Assembly (NCBI GenBank): GCA_028278065.1 | Contig: JANQFA010000026.1 | Location: 1-48,471 of the forward strand | Reading direction: 5' to 3' | Source of the DNA: Myxococcota bacterium | GTDB taxonomy: Bacteria; Myxococcota_A; UBA9160; JAFDET01 | Length of the DNA: 48,471 bases | Part shown: positions 29,755-45,787 of the stretch, one piece after another | How the letters are laid out: every line of letters begins with the position of its first letter | Numbering within the stretch: the first letter of the stretch is position 1 | The notes under the pieces: model-generated | What the model saw: the letters and a program-made list of their open reading frames with translations, nothing else | The model's database searches: none | Told to the model about the DNA's origin: nothing | Position numbers and translations under genes: made by a program

Positions 29755-31776
29755 GTGACGCGCGAAGAACAGCCCCGGACTGAATCCGCACGAGGGCGCG
29801 GGGCGTCGCCCGGCTGGAGCGCGGCGGTCGCCACCGCGCTTCTCGTGGCGGTCACCGCCGCGCTTCTCGTGGCCGTCACCGCCCTCGTCTACGCACCGGC
29901 CCTCGGCTTCGGGTTCGTGGCGTTCGACGATCCGCAGTACGTCGCGGCGAACCCGGCCGTCCAGGGCGGTCTCTCCTGGGAGTCCGTGCGCTGGGCGTTT
30001 ACGAGCACGACCCTCGGAAACTGGCATCCGCTCACCTCCCTCTCCTACATGCTCGACATCGAGCTGCTGGGATCGGATCCAACCGGCCATCACGCTGTGA
30101 ACGTGGTGCTCCACGTCGCCAACACGCTCCTCCTGGCAGCCGTCCTCTGGAATGCCACGGGAGCCCTCTGGCGCAGCGCCGCGGTCGCGGCCCTCTTCGC
30201 CGTGCATCCCCTCCACGTGGAGTCGGTGGCCTGGATCGCCGAGCGCAAGGACGTCCTGAGCACGTTCTTCGGGTTGCTCGCCATCGCCGCCTGGCTTCGC
30301 TACGCGCGACGCCCCTCGCCAACCCGCTACCTGATTGCGGCGTTGCCGTTCGCGCTCAGCCTGATGTCCAAGTCCATGCTCGTAACGCTTCCGATCCTGC
30401 TGTTGCTGCTCGACGTGTGGCCGCTCGGACGCGCATCCAGCGGACCTCGCCGGCTGATTGCCGAGAAGCTTCCCCTGGTCGCCCTGGCGGCGGCCGCGGT
30501 GGTCGGCGCCTTCGTGACCCAGGCCGCGGACAGCGCGCTCGCCCCGGACTCCATCGTCCCCTGGCCCGCACGCGCCTCCAATGCGGTGATCGCGAGCCTC
30601 GCATACCTGGGCAAGACCGTGTGGCCGTCGAATCTGGCCGTGTACTACCCACACCCCGTTGCGGTCGAAGCGGGGCGTGCCAGCGCAGCCGTGGCCGCGC
30701 TGCTCGCCGTCAGCGCCGGGGCCTTCGTGTGCCGCAAGAGCCGTCCGTACCTCCTGGTGGGCTGGCTCTGGTACCTCGTCTCCCTGCTTCCGGTAATCGG
30801 CCTGGTGCAGCTCGGCTACCAGTCCATGGCAGACCGCTACACCTACGTTCCGCTCATCGGGGTCTTTCTCGCTGTCGTGTGGGGCGTGGCCGATCTCGTG
30901 CGGGAGCGCCCCGTCCTTCGGGGAGCCGTCGTCGTCGGGAGCCTCGTCGTGCTGGCGCAGCTGGCCGCCCTGTCCCGCCAGCAGGTCCACTACTGGCGCG
31001 ATACGCGCACCCTCTTCGAGCACGCCCTCGAGGTGACCGAGGCGAATCCGATCGCCCACACGGTCCTGGGGCAGGTGGAGGCCGAGGCGGGCGACCTGGA
31101 CGCATCGGTCGCCCACTACCGCGAGGCGCTCCGGCTCGAGCCGCGCCTCGACGAGGCCCGCATCAACCTGGCGACGATCCTGGCGCATCAGGGACGGCTG
31201 GACGACGCCGCCGCCGAGCTGGAGGCGGTGCTGCCCGGAGCGCGGAATCCGGTCGACGTCCGCATGCGCCTGGGCAACGTCCACGCACTGGCGGGAGACC
31301 TCGACGCCGCACTCGAGCAGTACCGGGCGGTCCTGGAGCAGCAGCCCGATCACGTCATGGCGCGGAGCAACCTGGGGCAGCTCCTGGTGCGCAAGGGGCG
31401 ACGCGCGGAGGGGATGACGGCGTACCGCGAAGCCCTGGCACGAGATCCCGCCTTCGTCGCGGCACGCTTCAATCTGGCGATCGCGCTGGCCGCGGACGGC
31501 AGCCTCGACGAGGCCCGGCAGGAGCTGGAGCGGACCCTGCAGCATGCGCCGGAGTTCTCCGCGGCACGCCTTCAGCTGGCCCTCGTGCTGGATCAGCAGG
31601 GGCGCCGCGCAGACGCGCGCGCGGAGGTCGAGCGCGTCCTGGCGGCACGGCCGAACGATCCGATGGCGCAGCAGCTCGCGCGGCACCTCGCCGAGCCCTC
31701 GGCGGTCGGAGCCCCGTCTCAGGGCCCTCCCGAGGAGGGCGGCGCGCCCCCTGCAGAGCGCGGCTCGCCCCCGTAG
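29755..31776 (+). CDS. TPR-containing membrane protein, TMTC-like O-mannosyltransferase
   Basis: A 673-residue protein from GTG 29755. The N-terminal 400 residues are a GT-C membrane domain with the acidic loop VAFDDPQYVAANPAV, and HPLHVESVAWIAERKDVLSTFF, close to the motif of TMTC-type O-mannosyltransferases. About ten helices follow, including NLAVYYPHPVAVEAG in a loop. Residues 410-640 contain about six TPR units (such as DASVAHYREALRLEPRLDEA and EGMTAYREALARDPAF), which would face the periplasm and bind acceptor protein. A 24-bp tandem duplication in the first helix gives ALLVAVTAALLVAVTAL. The final 58 bp overlap the convergent gene end. Confidence 0.8.
   Translation: MTREEQPRTESARGRGASPGWSAAVATALLVAVTAALLVAVTALVYAPALGFGFVAFDDPQYVAANPAVQGGLSWESVRWAFTSTTLGNWHPLTSLSYMLDIELLGSDPTGHHAVNVVLHVANTLLLAAVLWNATGALWRSAAVAALFAVHPLHVESVAWIAERKDVLSTFFGLLAIAAWLRYARRPSPTRYLIAALPFALSLMSKSMLVTLPILLLLLDVWPLGRASSGPRRLIAEKLPLVALAAAAVVGAFVTQAADSALAPDSIVPWPARASNAVIASLAYLGKTVWPSNLAVYYPHPVAVEAGRASAAVAALLAVSAGAFVCRKSRPYLLVGWLWYLVSLLPVIGLVQLGYQSMADRYTYVPLIGVFLAVVWGVADLVRERPVLRGAVVVGSLVVLAQLAALSRQQVHYWRDTRTLFEHALEVTEANPIAHTVLGQVEAEAGDLDASVAHYREALRLEPRLDEARINLATILAHQGRLDDAAAELEAVLPGARNPVDVRMRLGNVHALAGDLDAALEQYRAVLEQQPDHVMARSNLGQLLVRKGRRAEGMTAYREALARDPAFVAARFNLAIALAADGSLDEARQELERTLQHAPEFSAARLQLALVLDQQGRRADARAEVERVLAARPNDPMAQQLARHLAEPSAVGAPSQGPPEEGGAPPAERGSPP
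29836..29883. repeat. 24-bp tandem duplication inside a transmembrane helix
   Basis: GCGCTTCTCGTGGCGGTCAC is repeated directly at 29860, with one mismatch across the 24-bp unit. It adds eight residues in frame to the first helix of the TPR membrane protein. Confidence 0.85.
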
Positions 31777-33182
31777 AACGTCTGCACCGCCTCCGCGATG
31801 TGCGAGCCGGGAAGCTGCTCCGCGAGGTAGAGCCAGGTGCGCGGAAGCGCGGGCTGGCGCTCGAGATCGAAGACGAGGCCCTGGGCGAAGACCAGGGCGG
31901 CGACCAGCGCGGCGGCGAGCGAAACACCCAGCGCCGGAGCTCGCCATCGCGCACGCAGCAGACCCGCCCCCCCGGCGAAGAAGACCGCCGCCGGCACCGC
32001 CAACGGGAGCAGATACGAGGCCTTCGCGGCGGCCAGCGACGGGGCGTAGGCCGTGAAGCCCACGAAGCTCACGAGGCCCAGCAGCGACAGCGCGACCAGC
32101 GGCGCATCCGGCGAGCGGCCCCGGCTGCGCACGGCCGCGGCGACGGCTGCCGCCAGCCCGGCCAGCACCAGGCCCGTCGGCACGAAGCCGAGCACGAGCA
32201 GCAGCGTCCCCCAGTACAGCCCGTCCCGGTGCGCCTCGATGGGAACCCGGTGCCCCATGGCGTCGTACCAGAGGCCCGCGTAGAGCTGCCCCCACACCCG
32301 CGTCATCGCCGGGTTCTTGTTGGCGTAGCTGCCGGGCGCATCGGCCACGTGGTAGATCGACGGCCGCAGCACGACTCCCGGATCGATCCACACGTAGTCG
32401 GCGACGCGCCGCGGGCGCAGGACCAGGGCGGCCTCGGCCCCGCGCATCGGCTCGAGGTCGCGAGTCATGGGAAGGGGCGTGCCCGCGACCACGAGATTTC
32501 GGAGGTAGACAGGGCCGGCGATCACGAGGCCGACGACCGCGGCGACCGCCAGCGCGCGCGCCCCGCGCCGGTCGAGATCGCGGCGCAGAAACGGCACGGC
32601 GCAGGCCCCGGCGACCCAGAACCCGGTGAACTTGGTCGCCAGCGCGAGCCCGGCGAAGAGACCCGCGAACGCAGCCGCCCGCGTGTCGCGCGGATCGGCC
32701 TGGAGCGCGACCAGGAACGGCAGCGCGAACGCCGCCAGGCCGGCGCCGAAGGCCTCGTTGCCGACCATCACCGCCGAGAACTGGTTGGCCGGGACCAGCC
32801 AGACCAGCGTCGCAGCCACGATCGCCACTCCCGATCCGGCCTCCTCGGGACCCAGCCGCCGCACCAGACTCGCCGCCACCAGTCCGGCTGCCAGCCACAC
32901 CGCCGCCCCGAGCCAGCGCAGGGCGACGCCCAGCTGCGCCGCTCCGAGCGGCTCGGCCAGCTTCCAGACACCGGCCGCAACGGCGTGGTAGGTGGGGGGA
33001 TGGAAGGTGGACCACCCCCCGAGCGGGTGGGGGAGCGCGCCCTCCCGGGCGATGGTCAGCAGGAATCCCGCGTGCCCCGGGGCGTCGTATCCGATCAGCG
33101 GGGGGAGCTTGGCCGCATTCCAGCCGTAGAGAGCCGCCGCCCCCGCGAGCGAAGCGCCCAGGAGCGCCCTCGTCCGATTCAC
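31719..33182 (-). CDS. GT-C family membrane glycosyltransferase
   Basis: A 487-residue protein from GTG 33182, where the hydrophobic N-terminus begins; a further 83 open codons upstream look non-coding. The first loop has PPLIGYDAPGHAGFLLTIARE and STFHPPTYHAVAAGV, a GT-C pattern with an acidic residue close to the first helix. About eleven helices follow, with ALATKFTGFWVAGACAVPFL mid-protein. The C-terminus (WLYLAEQLPGSHIAEAVQTF) resembles a short soluble tail. Its last 58 bp overlap the convergent TPR protein gene. The donor and acceptor are unknown. Confidence 0.75.
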   Translation of the reverse strand: MNRTRALLGASLAGAAALYGWNAAKLPPLIGYDAPGHAGFLLTIAREGALPHPLGGWSTFHPPTYHAVAAGVWKLAEPLGAAQLGVALRWLGAAVWLAAGLVAASLVRRLGPEEAGSGVAIVAATLVWLVPANQFSAVMVGNEAFGAGLAAFALPFLVALQADPRDTRAAAFAGLFAGLALATKFTGFWVAGACAVPFLRRDLDRRGARALAVAAVVGLVIAGPVYLRNLVVAGTPLPMTRDLEPMRGAEAALVLRPRRVADYVWIDPGVVLRPSIYHVADAPGSYANKNPAMTRVWGQLYAGLWYDAMGHRVPIEAHRDGLYWGTLLLVLGFVPTGLVLAGLAAAVAAAVRSRGRSPDAPLVALSLLGLVSFVGFTAYAPSLAAAKASYLLPLAVPAAVFFAGGAGLLRARWRAPALGVSLAAALVAALVFAQGLVFDLERQPALPRTWLYLAEQLPGSHIAEAVQTFYGGEPRSAGGAPPSSGGP

Positions 33183-33271
33183 CGGCAGATCCCGGATCCG
33201 TCCGCCGCCGCAGGGAAAACCGGCAGGTATCGCGCCAACAACCAAGCCCTCAACGCGTTTCCCCCCAGAAC

Positions 33272-33412: not shown

Positions 33413-33428
33413 CGGCACGCCTTGTGCA
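33413..33428 (+). promoter_or_regulatory. Sigma-54 (-24/-12) promoter candidate
   Basis: CGGCACGCCTTGTGCA matches the consensus TGGCACR-N4-TTGCW at 10 of 12 defined bases, with the invariant GG (33414-33415) and GC (33426-33427) 10 bp apart. Transcription would start near 33440, leaving a leader of about 93 nt before ATG 33533. Confidence 0.55.
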
Positions 33429-33532: not shown

Positions 33533-34669
33533 ATGAAGCGTATTGTGGCCTTTGCGGCCGGGACGGCCATGGTGATGGCGGGAGCCGCCGTGACCCAGGC
33601 CCTCATCTTGGATTCCTCAACCACGAAGAGCGCGGCCAAGTGGCGCGGCGACATCACGAAGCAGAGCAACAAGTTCACGGACTGCGTCGTGAAGGCGCTG
33701 CTCGGGTGCGAGAAGAAGGGTGCCTCGACCAGCCTCGAGTGCGACACCACGTGCGACACGGCGTCGAACACGGGTGGCGACCTGAACCTCGGCGGCACCG
33801 GTGCCTGCACCGATCCCGGCCACCCGGATGCGGGCGCGAACCAGAAGTTCCGCGATGCCCTCGACAAGTGCGTGGGCGCCTACAACGGCGGCAAGGCGGC
33901 CTTCGACGCGGACGGCAGCGGCGTGGCCAACGACCTGGGCGACCAGTCGCCGATCGGCTGCCAGGCCGACTGCGACGCGGCCGACGGCACCCAGCTCGAC
34001 ATCGCGTCGTGCGGTGGCGGCGACATCGGCGCGGCCTGGAACGCCGCGGTGACCGACCGCAACGGCACCACCCGCAGCACGCTGACGGCGTTCGACCTCC
34101 AGTTCGCGGTTGCATGCGGCGCCGACGACCCGCTCCTCGAGGATGAGCAGTCCGACTGCGTCAACACCAACGGCAAGCTGCTGGCCAAGATGACCTCCGG
34201 TGTCAACAAGGCCCTGGCGAAGTGCGAAGGCGACTTCAAGAACGCCGGCGGTGGCGGCCCCACGGATGATCCGACCGGCTGTCACGCGACGTTCAGCCTG
34301 CCCTGCTCCGAGGGCGCCTGCGCGCCGACCGGTGGCAACCAGGCCGTTCAGGACGCCATCAACGGCATCTTCAACGACCTCGTGGTGAACCCGGTCAACA
34401 GCCTGAACATCGCCCAGAGCCTGGTCCCGACCGTCGTGAACGGTCTCCAGAGCGCGTCGGATGGCAGCTACAACCGCCAGGTCGACTTCGACTCGGGTGG
34501 ATCCCCGTCGCCGGTGGGTACCGCAGCTCCGTCCTGCGGCACCTGCGGAGACGGCACGATCGACTTCGGTGAGGAGTGCGACCCTGGCGCCCCGCTGCCG
34601 GGGGGCTGTGCCAGCTGCCCGTCGACCACCAACTTCCTCGGTGGTATCACGGCCTGCGAGTGCAACTAG
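33533..34669 (+). CDS. Secreted Cys-rich protein, upstream member of a tandem pair
   Basis: A 378-residue protein from ATG 33533, with a strong AAAGGAGAG site. A signal peptide covers about residues 1-22 (IVAFAAGTAMVMAGAAVTQA). The mature part is rich in Cys, Asp and Gly, with segments such as TDCVVKALLGCEKKG, LECDTTCDT, GVNKALAKCEGDFKNAGGGG and VVNPVNSLNIAQ. It ends in a disulfide-type element CGTCGDGTIDFGEECDPG, which resembles the Myxococcus Cys-rich repeats found at the ends of many exported proteins. There is no CxxCH, so it is not a cytochrome. The family is not one I recognise. A 12-bp UUCG-loop terminator follows immediately. Location is probably periplasmic or extracellular. Confidence 0.8.
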   Translation: MKRIVAFAAGTAMVMAGAAVTQALILDSSTTKSAAKWRGDITKQSNKFTDCVVKALLGCEKKGASTSLECDTTCDTASNTGGDLNLGGTGACTDPGHPDAGANQKFRDALDKCVGAYNGGKAAFDADGSGVANDLGDQSPIGCQADCDAADGTQLDIASCGGGDIGAAWNAAVTDRNGTTRSTLTAFDLQFAVACGADDPLLEDEQSDCVNTNGKLLAKMTSGVNKALAKCEGDFKNAGGGGPTDDPTGCHATFSLPCSEGACAPTGGNQAVQDAINGIFNDLVVNPVNSLNIAQSLVPTVVNGLQSASDGSYNRQVDFDSGGSPSPVGTAAPSCGTCGDGTIDFGEECDPGAPLPGGCASCPSTTNFLGGITACECN

Positions 34670-34697
34670 GCCCATCGGGCTCTTAGCCAAGCCCAAC

Positions 34698-34733
34698 GGG
34701 GGCGGCAGCTTCGGCTGCCGCCCCCTTTCTTTC
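34698..34733 (+). terminator. Strong intrinsic terminator
   Basis: GGGGGCGGCAGC pairs perfectly with GCTGCCGCCCCC across a TTCG tetraloop, followed by TTTCTTTC. It lies 28 bp after the first Cys-rich gene and 38 bp before the second, so it probably sets their ratio by partial termination. Confidence 0.85.
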
Positions 34734-34771
34734 GGGCCCGTGGGGGGCTCGACGCATGAGGAGACCAGCTC

Positions 34772-35923
34772 ATGAAGGGTCTCGTGGCCTTCGTGACCGG
34801 AGCGACCCTCGTGGTGGCCGGTGCCGCCGGGACCGAGGCCCTCGTCCTGGATTCGGCGACGACGAAGAGCGCCGCCAAGTGGCGGGGCGACCTCACCAAG
34901 CAGGGCAACAAGCTCACCGACTGCATCGTGAAGGCGCTGCTCCAGTGCGAGTCGAAGGGCGCCTCCACCGGCCTCGAGTGCGACACCACATGCGACACGT
35001 CGTCCGACACGGGCGGCGCGCTGAACTTCGACGGGACCGGCGCGTGCACGGTCTCGACCCACCCCGATGCGGGCGCCAACGCGGCTTTCCGCGCGGCGAT
35101 CGACAAGTGCGTGGGTGGGTACAGGCCCGGCAAGGCGGCCTTCGACGCGGACGGCAGCGGCGTGGTCAACGACCTCGGCGACCAGTCCGCGATCGGCTGT
35201 CAGGCCGACTGCTCCCAGGCCGACGGCACCCAGCTGGACCTCGCCACCTGCACCGGCGGAGACATCAGCACCGCGTGGGCCGGCGCGGTGACCGGCCCGG
35301 GCGGCGTCACGCGCAGCACACTCACGGCGTTCGATCTGCAGTTCGGCATCGCCTGCGGCGCGGACACGCCGGACCTCGAAGACGAGCAGGCGGCCTGCAC
35401 GAGCACGAACGGCAAGCTGCTCGCCAAGATGGTCTCGGGGGTCAACAAGGCGCTCGCCAAGTGCGAGAACGACTTCAAGAACGCGGGTGGCGGAGGGCCG
35501 ACGGACGTGGGAGACGGCACGACCTGCCATGCGGAGTTCGCCGGCGTCTGTCCCGGCACCGGCGGGGCCGGCTGCGCTCCGACGGGCGGCAACCAGGCCG
35601 TGCAGGATGCCGTCGACGCCGTCTTCACCGATCTGGTCGTGAATCCGGTCAACAGCCTCAACATCGCGCAGGCCCTGGTGCCGACGGTCGTCGAAGGGCT
35701 GCAGGGTGCTTCATCCCTCGCCTACAACATGCAGATCGGCTTCGACACCGGCGGATCCCCGTCGCCCGTCGGCGACGCGGCGCCCTCGTGCGGTACCTGC
35801 GGCGACGGCAACCTCGACTTCGGCGAGGAGTGTGACTACAACGGAGACGACTCGGCCTGCCCGGGCAGCTGCCCGTCCACGACCAACTTCCTGGCCGGTC
35901 AGACTCCCTGCGCCTGCCCGTAG
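34772..35923 (+). CDS. Secreted Cys-rich protein, downstream member of a tandem pair
   Basis: A 383-residue paralogue of the gene just upstream, similar over its whole length. Shared segments include LDSxTTKSAAKWRGD, GGKAAFDADGSGV-type and PTGGNQAVQDA stretches. The signal peptide is about residues 1-22 (GLVAFVTGATLVVAGAAGTEA), and GAGGAGACC precedes ATG 34772. The C-terminus has CGTCGDGNLDFGEECDYNG and SCPSTTNFLAGQTPCACP. Cys positions are largely conserved between the copies, implying the same disulfide fold. It has no obvious promoter of its own and may depend on read-through of the terminator at 34698. The function is unknown; the pair may form a surface layer or matrix component. Confidence 0.8.
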   Translation: MKGLVAFVTGATLVVAGAAGTEALVLDSATTKSAAKWRGDLTKQGNKLTDCIVKALLQCESKGASTGLECDTTCDTSSDTGGALNFDGTGACTVSTHPDAGANAAFRAAIDKCVGGYRPGKAAFDADGSGVVNDLGDQSAIGCQADCSQADGTQLDLATCTGGDISTAWAGAVTGPGGVTRSTLTAFDLQFGIACGADTPDLEDEQAACTSTNGKLLAKMVSGVNKALAKCENDFKNAGGGGPTDVGDGTTCHAEFAGVCPGTGGAGCAPTGGNQAVQDAVDAVFTDLVVNPVNSLNIAQALVPTVVEGLQGASSLAYNMQIGFDTGGSPSPVGDAAPSCGTCGDGNLDFGEECDYNGDDSACPGSCPSTTNFLAGQTPCACP

Positions 35924-35963: not shown

Positions 35964-35977
35964 GCTGACCGGTCAGC
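35964..35977. repeat. 14-bp perfect palindrome between convergent genes
   Basis: GCTGACCGGTCAGC overlaps the stop codon of the minus-strand HEAT lipoprotein. It could fold as a 5-bp stem and may help termination in both directions, but no T-run follows. Confidence 0.4.
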
Positions 35978-36644
35978 TGGCAGGAATCGACGTGTCGCCC
36001 AGCGTGCGCAGGATGTTGGCCAGCGCACCCCGGATGCGGGGGTCGGTGGTCTCGTCCTTGTACAGCTCCAGCAGCCGGGCGCCGATCGTCGGATCCGCGA
36101 GGTGGATCAACGCCAGTCTGGCGTCCTTGTTCACGGCCGGGCTCGGGTCGCCCAGGGCGGCGACCAGGGCGTCGGTCACCTCGTCTCGGGCATCGATCCC
36201 GATGTAGTGAAGGGCTTCGATCGCCCGCAGCTTGGCCGCCTCCTGGCCCTCCACGGCGAAGATCCCGCCCAGGGCGCGCGCGGAGTCGGGGCCACCGATG
36301 TCCTCGAGGGCACCGATGGCGGTCTCGTACACGCGCTTGCGCGGATCGTCGATGTAGGCCGAGAGCGGGTCGATGGCGACGGGATGGCCGATCCAGCCCA
36401 GATCCGAGAGTGCTGCGACGACCTGGTCCTCGCTCGTCGCCGCCTCGAGCTTCGCGATCTGCTCGCGCGCGGACTCGAGCTCGTCCTCGTCGAAGCCCTC
36501 GGCCGCCGGCGGCGGGGGGAGCTCCGAGCGGATGGGAGCTTCCGTCATGGCCCCCTCGCTGCCGGCCTCCGACGTGGGCTCCTCGGGGCCGGGGCCGCAG
36601 GCGGGGATCAGCGCAACGATCGTGACCGTCAGCAGACGCTTCAT
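35973..36644 (-). CDS. HEAT-repeat lipoprotein
   Basis: A 223-residue protein from ATG 36644, 11 bp after the preceding HEAT gene. The signal ends in VALIPAC (Cys16). A Pro/Glu-rich linker runs to about residue 55, then four HEAT-like helical pairs follow (VVAALSDLGWIGHPVAIDPL, VYETAIGALEDIGG, KLRAIEALHYIGI, ALGDPSPAVNKDARLALIHL). Such armadillo-like solenoids bind partner proteins. The protein is probably anchored in the envelope. It is the last gene of a minus-strand run starting with the PEP-CTERM gene, and its two upstream neighbours have the same repeats. Confidence 0.8.
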   Translation of the reverse strand: MKRLLTVTIVALIPACGPGPEEPTSEAGSEGAMTEAPIRSELPPPPAAEGFDEDELESAREQIAKLEAATSEDQVVAALSDLGWIGHPVAIDPLSAYIDDPRKRVYETAIGALEDIGGPDSARALGGIFAVEGQEAAKLRAIEALHYIGIDARDEVTDALVAALGDPSPAVNKDARLALIHLADPTIGARLLELYKDETTDPRIRGALANILRTLGDTSIPAS

Positions 36645-36655
36645 GGGCAGCTCTC

Positions 36656-37837
36656 TCAGGCCTCGTCCTCGGGCACGAGGTCGCTGACGTCACCGCCCAG
36701 GTCTTCGATCAGGCCGATGAGCTGCGCCTGCAGCACCGGGTCGTTGGTGTTGAAGTAGGCGTCGCGCAGCAGGGGCACGGCGATGGGATCGTAGATCTCG
36801 TCCAGCGTCTGGGCCGCCGCGATCTGGATGGCCGGATCGGACGTGGTGACCAGGAGGGCCACTGCGAGCTCGACGGCCCGCTCGCCCTCGATCCACGCCA
36901 GCGCCTCGAGCGCCCGCTGCTGCAGGCCCTCGGCACCGCTCCGCGAGAAGGCGGCGGCCAGCGCGTCGACGGCCGACTCGCCGCCGATGTTCTCGAGCGC
37001 GTCGGCCGCAGCGAAGGCCAGTGCCAGATCCGACTCGTAGAGGGCGCCCTGCAGGGCGGTGGCGCTGGCCGGGTCGCGGATCCAGCCGAGCGCCCGGATC
37101 GCGCGCAGCTTGACTTCGGAGCTCACGTCGTTTCGGCGCAGCACCGAGGCGACCGCCGCGGCACCTTCCGTCCCGCCCAGCGTCTCGAAGCCGTCGATCG
37201 CCGCCATGATGGCCACGGGGTCGTTCGAGTTGAGCTGATCGAAGAGCGCGGCGACGTCGTTCTCGCCAGGGCTGCTCTCCTCGTCGGCCTGCCCGTCGCC
37301 GTCGTCCTCGCCCTGCGCGGCCGACTCGCCACCCTCCGAGTCCGCTGCCCCGCCCTCGTCGAGGGCCAGGACGGAGTCCGCACCTCCGGCGCTGCTCCGG
37401 CCGCCGAAGATCGTCCCGAGACCCGACCGGCCGGCGCTGCCGTCGCGGGTGGCTTCCGCGTCCCGCGGTCCCCGCGATGAGGAGGTGCTTCCGGTCAGCC
37501 CCGTCCGGTCCTTGGCCTTGGCGCCCTTCCGGCGCTCGATCGGGCGGCCGTCCTCGTCGAGCAGCACGCCGCCGTCGTCGCCGGAGTCCGCCGCACCGGC
37601 GGCTCCTCCTCGGGACGGGCCGGCGCCCCGGCGAGCGGCAACGGCCGCGGCCCGCACATCCCGCGGATCCTCCCCTCCCGCGATGCCGCGCAGGACGGAG
37701 AGCGGCGAGCGGACCAGGGCGGCGACCGCAGCCGCGACATCCGTCTCGCGGTCGCCGCCCAGCCAGAGGGCGGCACCGGAGAGCGCGATGCAGATCGCGA
37801 AGACGACGAGAACGGGGGTCCGGACCATCCGGGACAT
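36656..37837 (-). CDS. Membrane-anchored HEAT-repeat protein
   Basis: A 393-residue protein. One N-terminal helix (TPVLVVFAICIALSGAALWL) is followed by a long, low-complexity acidic and Ser/Gly-rich linker (residues 60-200, with DDGDGQADEESSPGEND). About six HEAT units fill residues 205-385 (FETLGGTEGAAAVASVLRRN, IRALGWIRDPASATALQGAL, ALEALAWIEGERAVELAVALL). It differs from its neighbours in being anchored by a helix rather than a lipid. The linker could let the solenoid reach across the periplasm. It is likely to be translated with the lipoprotein downstream (11-bp gap). Confidence 0.8.
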   Translation of the reverse strand: MSRMVRTPVLVVFAICIALSGAALWLGGDRETDVAAAVAALVRSPLSVLRGIAGGEDPRDVRAAAVAARRGAGPSRGGAAGAADSGDDGGVLLDEDGRPIERRKGAKAKDRTGLTGSTSSSRGPRDAEATRDGSAGRSGLGTIFGGRSSAGGADSVLALDEGGAADSEGGESAAQGEDDGDGQADEESSPGENDVAALFDQLNSNDPVAIMAAIDGFETLGGTEGAAAVASVLRRNDVSSEVKLRAIRALGWIRDPASATALQGALYESDLALAFAAADALENIGGESAVDALAAAFSRSGAEGLQQRALEALAWIEGERAVELAVALLVTTSDPAIQIAAAQTLDEIYDPIAVPLLRDAYFNTNDPVLQAQLIGLIEDLGGDVSDLVPEDEA

Positions 37838-37903
37838 TCTACAACTCGACGGGGACGCTTGGAAGAAGACAGGCGTCTCGGGGGCCCTCCGAGGATGCCC
37901 CCC

Positions 37904-38539
37904 CTACCCCTCCATGCCCTCCGCTTGCATCGCCGCCAGATCCTCCAGCTCGGCCAGCGCGTCGCCCAGCACCTCCCGCGCCTCGGCGTCGCTCTCGGCC
38001 AGGACCGCAGCCTGCAGATCGGGAATGGCCTGGGTCGCCTCCGCGAGGGCGAGCGCCTCGCCGCAGGCGGCCCGCACCAGGGGATCCGGATCCTGGAGGT
38101 GCTCGCTCAGGATCTCCAGCGCCCGCGGGGTCTCGAGGATGCTCAGCGCGTCGATCGCGCTCTGCTTGAGCAGCTCGGCGTCCTCGCCGGTGAGTGCAAA
38201 GACGTCCGTGAGCGCCTCGACGGCCTCCGTCGAGCCCATGTCCTCGAGGACCTGGATGGCGGCCTCGGCTACGTCGGGATCGGGATCCCGCAAGGCGGTG
38301 CGGACGGCCTCTACCGAGCCCGCCCCGCCGATGAAACCCAGCTCGTAGACGGCCTCGAGCCGCTCCTCCGCATCGGAGGCGCGCGTCACCTGCTCCAGGG
38401 TGGTGCGTCGGTGTGCGGCCTCGTCGAAGGGGGCCGTCTCCTGGGCACCCTGCTCGCACGCGAAGGGGCCGCATCCGTGCAGGAGTGCCACGGTGCAGAC
38501 GGCGGCGAGTCGCAGCGGGAGCGGGAGGTTCGCGTTCAC
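37904..38539 (-). CDS. HEAT-repeat lipoprotein
   Basis: A 211-residue protein from ATG 38539. The signal ends in ALLHGC (Cys23). HEAT units follow from about residue 55: RLEAVYELGFIGGAGSVEAV, DVAEAAIQVLEDMGSTEAVEAL, LLKQSAIDALSILETPRALEIL, LVRAACGEALALAEATQAI. It sits 56 bp downstream of the PEP-CTERM gene and 66 bp ahead of the membrane-anchored HEAT gene, so all four genes may share a transcript. The role is probably protein binding at the envelope, with no partner identified. Confidence 0.8.
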   Translation of the reverse strand: MNANLPLPLRLAAVCTVALLHGCGPFACEQGAQETAPFDEAAHRRTTLEQVTRASDAEERLEAVYELGFIGGAGSVEAVRTALRDPDPDVAEAAIQVLEDMGSTEAVEALTDVFALTGEDAELLKQSAIDALSILETPRALEILSEHLQDPDPLVRAACGEALALAEATQAIPDLQAAVLAESDAEAREVLGDALAELEDLAAMQAEGMEG

Positions 38540-40863: not shown

Positions 40864-41808
40864 TCAGGGAGATGCGGACGGGCCGGGCACTCCGGCGGCA
40901 AAGCCGGGCAGGAAGAGGTTGAAGTCGCTCGCGTTCACCGCACCGCTGCCGTCCATGTCCGCACCGACCCCGGTGTCGCTGCCGCTGGAGAAGATCGGCA
41001 GGAAGAGGTTGAAGTCGTCGGCGTTGCAGCGCTGCTGGGGATCGTTGTTGAAGTCGCAGTCGCACATGTTCCCGAAGCCGTCGGCGTCGGTGTCGAGCTG
41101 CGAGAAGCCTCCGGCATCGAGCGCGAGCGGGCCATTCGCGGCGGCGATGCAGTTGTCGCAGGCGTCGCCGACGCCGTCGCCGTCCTGGTCTGCCTGGCTC
41201 GCGTTGGAGACGGTCGGGCAGTTGTCGGAGCAGCCCGCGGTCTGCCCGCCGGTGCAGGGATCCAGGCCCGGGTCGTCGGGGATTCCGTCACCGTCGTCTC
41301 CGACGGTGACGTCCGCACCGCTCGCCGTCACGGCGGCGCTGCTCCCGCCGGCCGTGGAAGCACGCCCCGTCGCCCCGAGGACGTAGGTGCCGGGAGTGGC
41401 GTTGCCCGCCGTCGTGAACTGGCACGCGAAGATCGTCCCGTCCGGGAGCACGTTGTTGTTGAAGCCGAGCACGCCCACCCGAAGCACGCCGGTCGCCGGC
41501 TGGCTCTGGACGAGGGACTTGGCTGCGCTGGTCCCGGCACCCACGGATGCATCGATCGCGCAGACCGGCGTTCCCGGGAAGATCGCCGCGTCGTAGGTGA
41601 TGTCGGTGGAGAGCGAGGCCACCTCCTCGCCCGTCCCGCTGAACGAGACGGGGACGTCGAAGGTCCCACCCGCCGCAGTGGTGGCGCCGCCGAGGGAGAT
41701 CTCCGCCGCCCGCACCCCCGAGGCCAGCGTGCACACGGACGCGAGGACGAGGGTTGCCATCCAACCCGCCCGGAACCCTGACCATCTGCTCGGCACCACT
41801 CGTCGCAT
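40864..41808 (-). CDS. Secreted cohesin-like, TSP3 and dockerin-like protein
   Basis: A 314-residue protein from ATG 41808; the longer open frame to 41946 lacks a signal peptide. The signal (about residues 1-35) is followed by a cohesin-like domain (35-160; GGTFDVPVSFSGTGEEVASL and ILGFNNN-like VGVLGFNNNVL). Calcium-binding thrombospondin type 3 repeats (DQDGDGVGDACDNC) occupy about 170-250. The dockerin-like end has two EF-hand-type units (DFNNDPQQRCNADDFNLFLP and DMDGSGAVNASDFNLFLPGF). Cohesin and dockerin normally pair in surface complexes, and having both in one chain would allow chaining or self-assembly. The end module is almost the same as that of the 43730 protein. Confidence 0.8.
   Translation of the reverse strand: MRRVVPSRWSGFRAGWMATLVLASVCTLASGVRAAEISLGGATTAAGGTFDVPVSFSGTGEEVASLSTDITYDAAIFPGTPVCAIDASVGAGTSAAKSLVQSQPATGVLRVGVLGFNNNVLPDGTIFACQFTTAGNATPGTYVLGATGRASTAGGSSAAVTASGADVTVGDDGDGIPDDPGLDPCTGGQTAGCSDNCPTVSNASQADQDGDGVGDACDNCIAAANGPLALDAGGFSQLDTDADGFGNMCDCDFNNDPQQRCNADDFNLFLPIFSSGSDTGVGADMDGSGAVNASDFNLFLPGFAAGVPGPSASP
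41008..41088 (-). repeat. 81-bp near-identical copy in dockerin module (copy 1)
   Basis: The minus-strand sequence here differs at one base in 81 from 45575-45655 on the plus strand. Both encode DCDFNNDPQQRCNADDFN and flanks. The flanking dockerin DNA has diverged more. Confidence 0.9.
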
Positions 41809-41839
41809 CCGCTTGTTCCCCGCAACAGCCGCAGTCCCG

Positions 41840-41845
41840 AGTATA
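41840..41845 (-). promoter_or_regulatory. TATACT -10 element candidate
   Basis: On the minus strand TATACT (5/6 match to TATAAT) lies 32-37 bp before ATG 41808. It shares the nonamer GTATACTCG with the palindrome at 19493. No clear -35 box is visible. Confidence 0.35.
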
Positions 41846-41968
41846 CGGGTGCGACGCCGCGTTCCGCCCTCGAAACCTGCGCCGCCGCGGCCCTCGGCTC
41901 CCCCGCGGGTCGCACCGGCCGGGCGCAGACTCTCGGACTCGACCATCTAGGGAGTAGCCATGGCGCTC

Positions 41969-43022: not shown

Positions 43023-43038
43023 CGGCACTGGGCTTGCA
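43023..43038 (+). promoter_or_regulatory. Sigma-54 (-24/-12) promoter candidate
   Basis: CGGCACTGGGCTTGCA matches TGGCACR-N4-TTGCW at 10 of 12 defined bases, including GG (43024-43025), N10, GC (43036-43037). The start point would be near 43049, only about 4 nt before ATG 43053, so the first gene would be nearly leaderless. No ribosome-binding site is visible there, which is consistent. It closely resembles the site at 33413. Confidence 0.55.
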
Positions 43039-43052
43039 ACAGCCGCGGCCCC

Positions 43053-43628
43053 ATGTGGGAGCGTCGCAAGCCCTGGCTCCGTCCGCTGTTCCTCGTCCTG
43101 GCGGGCGCGGTGGCCCTCGGAACGGGCTGTGCGACCACCTCTCCGGAGCCGGCCGAGCCCGCGCCGACGCCCGAAGCCGGCGTGGTGTCCGACGAGACCG
43201 CCGCGCAGATCCTCGCCGAAGAGGAGCCCCAGGACCGGAGCGACGTCCGCGTCGGCTGGGGCATCTATCTGTTCGACATGCAGCGCGAGCCCAATCGCAC
43301 CACGACCCGCGTCCTCGACCTCTGGATCCTGCGTTTGCTGGAGGTGGGCTCGGGCACAAACCCCGACTACTCGGCGTTCGGTCTCCTCGAGGGCCCGCTG
43401 TTCAAGATCTTCGCGCGCCGCAAGGACGGCGTGACCCGCGAGCTCCGCTTCGCCGACTTCCGGATCCTGGCCCTGTACCGCGGCAAGCGGCAGTCGGAAG
43501 ATCAGTCGGAGTGGCACGTCCTCAAGCTGCCTTTCATCGGCTCCCTGCTGAGCCGGGAGGAGATCGGGAACGAGCACAAGTGGACGTTCCTGTACCTGGT
43601 CCGCGTCAACATTCCCCAGGAGGAATGA
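43053..43628 (+). CDS. Lipoprotein of unknown function
   Basis: A 191-residue protein from ATG 43053. The lipoprotein signal ends in ALGTGC (Cys26), and the arginine-rich start MWERRKPWLR fits a Sec signal. A Pro/Glu linker runs to about residue 62. The folded part has VGWGIYLFDMQREPNRTTTR, VLDLWILRLLEVGSG and KIFARRKDGVTRELRFADF, apparently mixed beta and alpha. I do not recognise the family. No Shine-Dalgarno sequence precedes the start, and a -24/-12 site lies just upstream. The dockerin-type gene 101 bp downstream may share the transcript. Confidence 0.65.
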   Translation: MWERRKPWLRPLFLVLAGAVALGTGCATTSPEPAEPAPTPEAGVVSDETAAQILAEEEPQDRSDVRVGWGIYLFDMQREPNRTTTRVLDLWILRLLEVGSGTNPDYSAFGLLEGPLFKIFARRKDGVTRELRFADFRILALYRGKRQSEDQSEWHVLKLPFIGSLLSREEIGNEHKWTFLYLVRVNIPQEE

Positions 43629-43729
43629 GGGCCCGGAACCACGAGGTGCCGGACGGTGTCCATCCGGTCGGCGCCTCGGCCGCCGTTGCTGCAGACGCTG
43701 CCATGAGCCGACGCCGAAGGAGAATGCTG

Positions 43730-45787
43730 GTGCCGCTGTCGTCCCCCCTCCGCTCTCGAGTCCACCTCGCGACCTGCTTCGCGCTCCTCCTGCCTCTCGC
43801 CGCCGACCCGGCTCGCGCAACCGAGGCCGGAGAGCTCTGCGACGGTGGCGTGCTCGTCGATCCCTGCATCATCAGCGGCAACCTCGATGTCGAGGACTTC
43901 TCGCTGCTCGATTTCGAAGGCGCCGAGGTGATCCTGAGCGGCACCCTCGACGTGGATTCGGGCTCGATGGACATCAACGCGGGACGCTTCGAGATCACGT
44001 CGTCGGGCCAGATCAAGGGCGTGGGGGGCACCAGCGACGTGGGCGGCCAGATCGTGATGACGATCACCGGCGACGTGGTGATCGACGGGACGGCTGGCAG
44101 CGGCGCGGTCTTCATCACCGGCAAAGACGGCGGCACCCTCGACATCACGGCCGGCGGATCGATCACCGGCTCCGGCAAGGTCAACGCCGAGGCGACGCCC
44201 GTCGACGGCTTCGGCGGAGAGATCGCGCTCACCGCGGCCAGCATCAACTACACCGGCGAGCTGACATCGGCCGGGGGCGCCGGCGCCTTCGGCCTCGGCG
44301 GTGTGGTGGAGATCGCGGCCACGACGGGACCCGTCATCCTCGCCGAGGTGGACGTGCGTGGCGGCGAGGGCGGCATCTTCGACGTCTTCCAGGGGACCTC
44401 CGTGGAGCTCGGCACCGTCATCGGCCGCGGGGTGGGCACGGACGGCTTCGGATCCGACGTGAGCCTGAGCTCGAGCGGGACCGTGACCTGGGACCTGATC
44501 GACCTCGACAGCGGCGGCGCCGACGGCGGGTCCCTGGGCGTATTCGCCGATGGCATCGTCACCGTGGGAGACGTCGAGGCGAGCGGAGGCGGGGACTCCG
44601 GCCTGGCGGGCGCGATCACGGTCACGACCACCAACGCGGCCGACATCGTGCTTCCGGCCTCGGCCGAGATCCTCGCGCGCGGCGCGAACAACCTCCTGAG
44701 CGGCGGCGACGGCGGGACGCTCGACCTGTCGGCCGGCTCGCCCGCCAGTCCGGGCAACGTCACCGTGGCCGGCTCCGTCGAGCTCCTCGGCCGCGGCGCC
44801 AACGGCTGCGGTGGGACGTTCTTCGTCGCAGGCGGCGACATCACGCTCTCCGGGAGCATCGCGATGTCCGGCTCCAGCTTCACCAGCTGCGGTGGACTCG
44901 CCGACGTGGACGCGACGGGCGTTCTCGACATCTCGGGAGAGATCGATGCGGACCACGGTGACTCCTCCCCCGCCAACCTGGACCTGTACGGCATCGGGGG
45001 CCTGGATCTCACCGGTACGGTCCACGCCGATGCGAAGGGCAACGACACGACTGCCGGCGACGTCGTGCTGCGTTCCGACGGGCTGCTCCAGCTGATGGCG
45101 GGCAGCTCGGCGACTGCGAACGGCGCGAACCCCAGCACCGGATCCGGAGGGGGCGTCGTGCTCGAGGGTTGCCGGGTCGACGTCGCCAGCGGCGTCGCCG
45201 TGGAGGCGGAAGACGGGTTCGGAGACGTGGTCGTCCGGACGCGCGGCTCGGTCCAGTCGACGCTTGCGGGGGCCTTCCTGGCCGGTCCCGAAGGGATCGG
45301 GATCGCCCTGCGCCACCGGGATCCGGAGACGCCCCCGGACACGACCGGCGCGAGCTTCAGCCCCACGGAGACCGTGACCCACGACCCGACCCTCCTCGAG
45401 TGCGACTCCGACGAGGACACGGTCGGCGACGACACCGACAACTGCCTGCTCACGCCCAACCCGACCCAGGACGACGCGGACTTCGACGGTCAGGGAGACG
45501 TCTGCGACAACTGCCTGCTGGCCGCCAACGGCCCGCTCATCCCCGATGCGGGAGGCAACGTCCAGCTCGACGTCGACGGCGACGGCTTCGGGAACATGTG
45601 CGACTGCGACTTCAACAACGATCCCCAGCAGCGCTGCAACGCCGACGACTTCAACATCTTCCTGCCGGAGTTCTCGAGCGGAAGCGACAGCGGAATCGGC
45701 ACGGACATGGATGGAAGCGGCGCGGTGAACGCGAGCGACTTCAACATCTTCCTGCCGGGCTTCGCCGCCGGCGTTCCGGGCCCCTAG
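43730..45787 (+). CDS. Secreted beta-helix protein with TSP3 and dockerin-like C-terminus
   Basis: A 685-residue protein. GTG 43730 is chosen because AAGGAG lies 7 nt upstream; ATG 43724 and 43703 are alternatives. A signal peptide (HLATCFALLLPLAADPARA) is followed by about 500 residues of short beta-strand repeats rich in Gly, Asp, Ser and Thr (GEIALTAASINYTGEL, GGTLDLSAGSPASPGNVTV), typical of a right-handed beta-helix surface protein or adhesin. Near the end are TSP3-like calcium sites (DSDEDTVGDDTDNC, DFDGQGDVCDNC) and a dockerin-like pair (DFNNDPQQRCNADDFNIFLP, DMDGSGAVNASDFNIFLPGF). The last module nearly repeats that of 40864-41808. It probably binds a cohesin-like partner on the surface. 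Confidence 0.8.
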   Translation: MPLSSPLRSRVHLATCFALLLPLAADPARATEAGELCDGGVLVDPCIISGNLDVEDFSLLDFEGAEVILSGTLDVDSGSMDINAGRFEITSSGQIKGVGGTSDVGGQIVMTITGDVVIDGTAGSGAVFITGKDGGTLDITAGGSITGSGKVNAEATPVDGFGGEIALTAASINYTGELTSAGGAGAFGLGGVVEIAATTGPVILAEVDVRGGEGGIFDVFQGTSVELGTVIGRGVGTDGFGSDVSLSSSGTVTWDLIDLDSGGADGGSLGVFADGIVTVGDVEASGGGDSGLAGAITVTTTNAADIVLPASAEILARGANNLLSGGDGGTLDLSAGSPASPGNVTVAGSVELLGRGANGCGGTFFVAGGDITLSGSIAMSGSSFTSCGGLADVDATGVLDISGEIDADHGDSSPANLDLYGIGGLDLTGTVHADAKGNDTTAGDVVLRSDGLLQLMAGSSATANGANPSTGSGGGVVLEGCRVDVASGVAVEAEDGFGDVVVRTRGSVQSTLAGAFLAGPEGIGIALRHRDPETPPDTTGASFSPTETVTHDPTLLECDSDEDTVGDDTDNCLLTPNPTQDDADFDGQGDVCDNCLLAANGPLIPDAGGNVQLDVDGDGFGNMCDCDFNNDPQQRCNADDFNIFLPEFSSGSDSGIGTDMDGSGAVNASDFNIFLPGFAAGVPGP
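45575..45655 (+). repeat. 81-bp near-identical copy in dockerin module (copy 2)
   Basis: Plus-strand partner of 41008-41088, in inverted orientation about 4.5 kb away, with one mismatch in 81 bp. It lies within the dockerin-like coding sequence. Confidence 0.9.

Follow-up and report, generated by a model that had tools for sequence, protein, structure and literature searches.

A tandem pair of putatively secreted, cysteine-rich paralogues with an unplaced body in a Myxococcota bacterium

Two neighbouring genes of a Myxococcota bacterium (assembly GCA_028278065.1) were singled out in a preliminary description as tandem paralogues, rich in cysteine and apparently secreted, whose body could not be matched to any known family. 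What kind of proteins are these, how widely do they occur, and might they be abundant structural material, as their arrangement was taken to suggest? We addressed these questions in the window, i.e., the whole 48,471-nt stretch of contig JANQFA010000026.1, and in collections of other genomes. Both open reading frames, P0002 and P0001, were recovered at the positions and in the lengths that had been proposed (Table 1), and the two proteins share 73% identity across their full length. The claim of common Cys positions was borne out as well: 21 of 22 Cys align between P0001 and P0002, and 20 of these are also common to a third paralogue, which came to light when the source genome was searched, is 52% identical to P0001 and carries an extra Cys-containing insert. 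Members of this three-paralogue family contain 22–26 Cys per protein. A resemblance of the third paralogue to Cerato-platanin (E 0.014; 16 bits against a cut-off of 24.4) was dismissed as chance.

Table 1 Positions of the paralogues, associated sequence elements and copies of the Cys/Lys-rich module. Plain numbers refer to the window; G000 is the source genome, followed by contig and position.
Feature	Position	Strand	Remarks
Sigma-54-like -24/-12 site, CGGCACG-CCTT-GTGCA	33413-33428	+	ends 104 bases before P0002 start codon
P0002, first paralogue	33533-34669	+	378 aa; signal-like N-terminus; 22 Cys in mature part
DUF4215/TIGR02232-like tail of P0002	34544-34666	+	residues 338-378; E 6e-8, own repeat model
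UUCG hairpin, terminator-like	34698-34725	+	12 bp, -31 kcal/mol, z -4.5; between P0002 and P0001
P0001, second paralogue	34772-35923	+	383 aa; signal-like N-terminus; 22 Cys in mature part
DUF4215/TIGR02232-like tail of P0001	35798-35920	+	residues 343-383; E 1e-8, own repeat model
Third paralogue	G000:C91:97629-98858	-	410 aa; other contig of same genome, unlinked
Cys/Lys-rich module copy, L031	G000:C24:4475-5245		
Cys/Lys-rich module copy, L040	G000:C77:21372-22115		
Cys/Lys-rich module copy, L043	G000:C196:5474-6163	-	
Cys/Lys-rich module copy, L045	G000:C90:23121-23855		
Cys/Lys-rich module copy, L048	G000:C147:9334-10128		
Cys/Lys-rich module copy, L050	G000:C141:3698-4444		
Cys/Lys-rich module copy, L052	G000:C209:3609-4286	-	

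Divergence between P0001 and P0002 (dN 0.20, dS 0.66, dN/dS 0.30) is dominated by synonymous change, which marks both as constrained genes and their duplication as not brand new; the pair is real coding sequence under purifying selection. Each protein begins with what was judged by eye to be a Sec-type signal peptide, and on the strength of these signal-like N-termini export is putative. The mature proteins are strongly acidic (pI 4.05–4.1), with 34–36 Asp against 13–15 Lys, so the 'K-rich' character ascribed to them does not hold overall; what remains of the proposed K-rich helical pattern is a concentration of Lys in two predicted helices. All three paralogues keep a DxDGSG loop plus a subsequent Asp. 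A suspected internal repeat, pairing the N-terminal helix with the helix at residues 205–238, is not claimed: 44, 200 and 399 of 1000 shuffles matched its single-sequence scores, and a profile comparison with E 2.5e-4 spans only 20 columns.

The C-terminal tail could be assigned. Its CGDGxxDFGEECD motif is present in all three paralogues, as anticipated for the pair, and the tail follows the pattern that DUF4215/TIGR02232 repeats require, a CGDG-x-GE-x-CD core and then paired Cys. TIGR02232 matched the last ~45 residues of two of the three paralogues below its cut-off of 20.8 bits (16.9 bits for P0002 and 17.4 for the other), while the DUF4215 model (PF13948) did not pick up the tail in a Pfam search. 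Our own model, built from 18 DUF4215-like repeats of the source genome and its relatives, matched the tails of all three (20–24 bits; E 5e-9 to 6e-8, with three sequences searched). Judging from these two sets of matches, the tail is a divergent cysteine repeat of the DUF4215/TIGR02232 type. It resembles the cysteine-rich acidic repeats of these families in its CGDGxxDFGEECD...C..C pattern and differs from them in being a single divergent copy of ~45 residues that ends in C-x-C and leaves the body uncovered. Related repeats sit in long ORFs of the source genome and its relatives. Two loci of another genome of the order (L014 and L015 in G008) bear DUF4215-like repeats of a second spacing, CDGxxDAACPGxCxxxCxC, close to the P0001 tail. 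The literature on this tail family and on comparable proteins yielded no useful parallel.

For the body (approximately residues 24–330), neither P0001 nor P0002 gave an above-chance match in Pfam, NCBIfam, PHROGs or PADLOC, and a PDB sequence search with P0001 returned 0 chains at E values up to 10. AlphaFold2, given only P0001 and P0002, each at full length and with the tail removed, produced models with mean pLDDT values of 32 and 36, which were thus unfit for a fold search. The notion of an unrecognised family therefore stands for the body and falls for the tail: by sequence comparison, the former is unplaced in current family libraries and the latter is of an already known type.

A lead to the body came from a short pattern. 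Searched as DNA in the source genome, KAxxKC occurs at six sites (none for the reversed control), three of them in the paralogue family and three in large proteins with a Cys/Lys-rich helical module. This module, ~250 residues long, has seven copies in the source genome; elsewhere in the order it recurs in eight genomes (eight copies in G008, the rest in the other seven), and those members that were tested had no credible match in Pfam or NCBIfam. Copies in long ORFs often come with a terminal DCDxxDDG...SC motif. The body might be a diverged version of this module, which would make the pair free-standing representatives of a broader family of extracellular modules. Residues 205–241 match module helix 1 ungapped and with the same 22-residue Cys spacing, residues 14–67 match a second module helix, these scores are reached by 5–9 of 1000 local-composition shuffles, and the KAxxKC pattern matches only the paralogue family and module proteins. 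Against this, the alignments reach at most 5.9 bits and an hhalign probability of 19%, and the order of the two helices is swapped in the alignment, with the remainder of the module unaligned; the module profile thus aligns to the window proteins over two separate helices rather than over most of its ~250 positions. Module and pair have in common helices with C-x21-C spacing and KAxxKC, but their overall similarity is marginal and the module mostly lies inside longer ORFs. We regard the resemblance as suggestive and short of membership, and common descent of the body from the module as a possible but doubtful origin.

How narrowly the family is distributed was assessed with a three-member profile. 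It detected no relatives of the body in the rest of the order (79 genomes) or of the class (90 genomes, two same-genus ones included), nor among 378 genomes sampled from the phylum; matches outside the source genome were confined to the tail region. Two pattern scans of GTDB r220, one seeded on the N-terminus and tail and one on mid-body, returned 150 and 544 candidate stretches, respectively, with 0 confirmed relatives each, and scans of viral contigs and plasmids gave no match to the family. As these searches rely on a fast prefilter or on pattern seeds and several genomes are incomplete, distant relatives may have been missed. The genes flanking the pair were absent from the detections in the two same-genus genomes, which leaves no empty site for comparison. 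In the collections searched, the three-member family so far appears confined to one genome.

A Cys-rich, secreted orphan tandem found in one genome and missing in same-genus genomes is also what fast-turnover interaction proteins would look like, and the pair could be diffusible or cell-contact antagonists or signals, stabilised by disulphides and diversified through duplication. Neither locus has an immunity-like partner gene beside it, however, no toxin or defence family was matched, and the dN/dS of 0.30 points to constraint and not to diversification, so that we consider such an acting role unlikely.

Turning to expression, we examined the sigma-54 site and the terminator that had been proposed to adjoin and separate the genes. 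The putative site upstream of P0002 has two mismatches to TGGCACGN4TTGCA and GG-N10-GC spacing, and an equally good one would arise by chance on the plus strand of that intergenic stretch with P ~0.01–0.016. The proposed site is therefore credible before P0002 (a chance of 1–2%), but not for the other paralogues, and no such site lies upstream of the third one. RpoN is encoded in the source genome; the region yielded no promoter of the sigma-70 type. Between the end of the sigma-54 motif and the start codon, proteobacterial PEP-CTERM genes have on average 71 bases (SD 38.5; PMC1569441), compared with 104 at P0002.

The UUCG hairpin reported as a strong terminator between the paralogues is indeed there and is terminator-like (Table 1). 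Its 16-base core, GGCAGCTTCGGCTGCC, has just two occurrences across the 5.35 Mb of the assembly, one between P0002 and P0001 and one directly 3' of the third paralogue; the outer stem differs in sequence between the two sites and retains its pairing. With the core found only at two sites, each 3' of a family gene, the hairpin seems to belong to the paralogue gene unit. P0001, the second gene of the window, is without it. An Rfam search across the window gave no match. With an Nc of 30.0, the lowest among the window ORFs compared (ORF 31722–33183 was left out), P0002 gives a weak hint of high expression, which can merely reflect high GC. The proposed high-abundance structural protein is plausible in view of the low Nc, the strength of the hairpin and, before P0002 only, the possible sigma-54 promoter.

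Among the products of the neighbouring genes are a sigma-54 response regulator, a cohesin/TSP3/dockerin-like protein and a protein with a PEP-CTERM; the gene for the last and that for the regulator lie 3–5 kb from the pair. As no more than an analogy, RpoN-driven PEP-CTERM proteins keep flocs together in a different bacterium (PMC9850573). Like sigma-54-controlled PEP-CTERM matrix proteins (PMC1569441, PMC9850573), the members of the pair are putatively secreted and follow a long non-coding upstream stretch with a sigma-54-like site at a comparable distance, and a PEP-CTERM gene and a regulator lie nearby. Unlike them, the pair has no PEP-CTERM tail: neither PF07589 nor TIGR02595 matched, and the C-terminus is Cys-rich. 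The nearby regulator scored 308 bits with the PrsR model, under its cut-off of 502.6 and below the NtrC and AtoC models. Given the third paralogue without a site, the missing PEP-CTERM and the regulator under the PrsR cut-off, the link of the pair to PEP-CTERM/PrsR-type sigma-54 control is weak. No anchor was found either, the C-terminus having neither a membrane segment nor a PEP-CTERM, a point against the surface or matrix reading, in which attachment would be putative.

Other genes of the window also deserve mention. Two secreted proteins, at 40864–41946 (minus strand) and 43034–45787 (plus strand), have near-identical C-termini (DCDFNNDPQQRCNADDFNxFLPxFSSGSD...DMDGSGAVNASDFNxFLPGFAAGVPGP); the former contains a cohesin domain, TSP3-like repeats and a GC-type dockerin match below cut-off. 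Three consecutive small HEAT-repeat proteins, two of them with lipoprotein-like signal sequences, are encoded at 35973–38539 (minus strand), convergent with the pair. At 29755–31776 (plus strand), a membrane protein with weak PMT_2 similarity is fused to C-terminal TPR repeats; next to its gene lie those for a further multi-pass membrane protein and for a GT2 glycosyltransferase.

That the pair belongs to a real secreted orphan family is, in our view, very probable; a structural role of this family at the surface or in a matrix is about an even bet. In the account that we favour, with a probability of roughly 0.5 as a whole, P0002 and P0001 are exported, acidic, disulphide-rich surface or matrix proteins, with P0002 favoured by promoter and hairpin. 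Following Sec export, the Cys would pair into ~11 disulphides that fix the helix-containing body, the exported proteins would form structural or adhesive material of the cell surface or extracellular matrix, and the Asp-rich body with its conserved DxDGSG loop could bind calcium. Transcription would begin upstream of P0002, possibly from the sigma-54 site. The UUCG hairpin would stop most transcripts or shield the P0002 message and would in either way cause P0002 to be made in excess of P0001. Both the location of the proteins and their disulphides are inferred, as are calcium binding, abundance and stoichiometry. That the pair comprises instead periplasmic or surface binders of calcium, another cation or a ligand, with no structural role, accords with the 34–36 Asp, the pI of ~4.1 and the DxDGSG loop with its subsequent Asp in all three paralogues, but is improbable, as EF-hand and dockerin models do not match the loop, EF-hand position 12, acidic in EF-hands, is Gly here, and no transporter or redox partner is adjacent. 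Within the structural reading, the boldest version, in which the body is a new fold and the pair the disulphide-rich, acidic, helical main surface or matrix protein of a narrow lineage with a hairpin-set paralogue ratio, is more improbable still.

As it stands, the family represents a clean case of an orphan secreted family, found in one genome of the collections, conserved across three paralogues and with a body that family libraries do not cover. It also leads to the wider Cys/Lys-rich helical module, which is worth a family entry of its own. Were the family to turn out to be abundant at the surface, this would illustrate how narrow the distribution of a lineage's matrix material can be.
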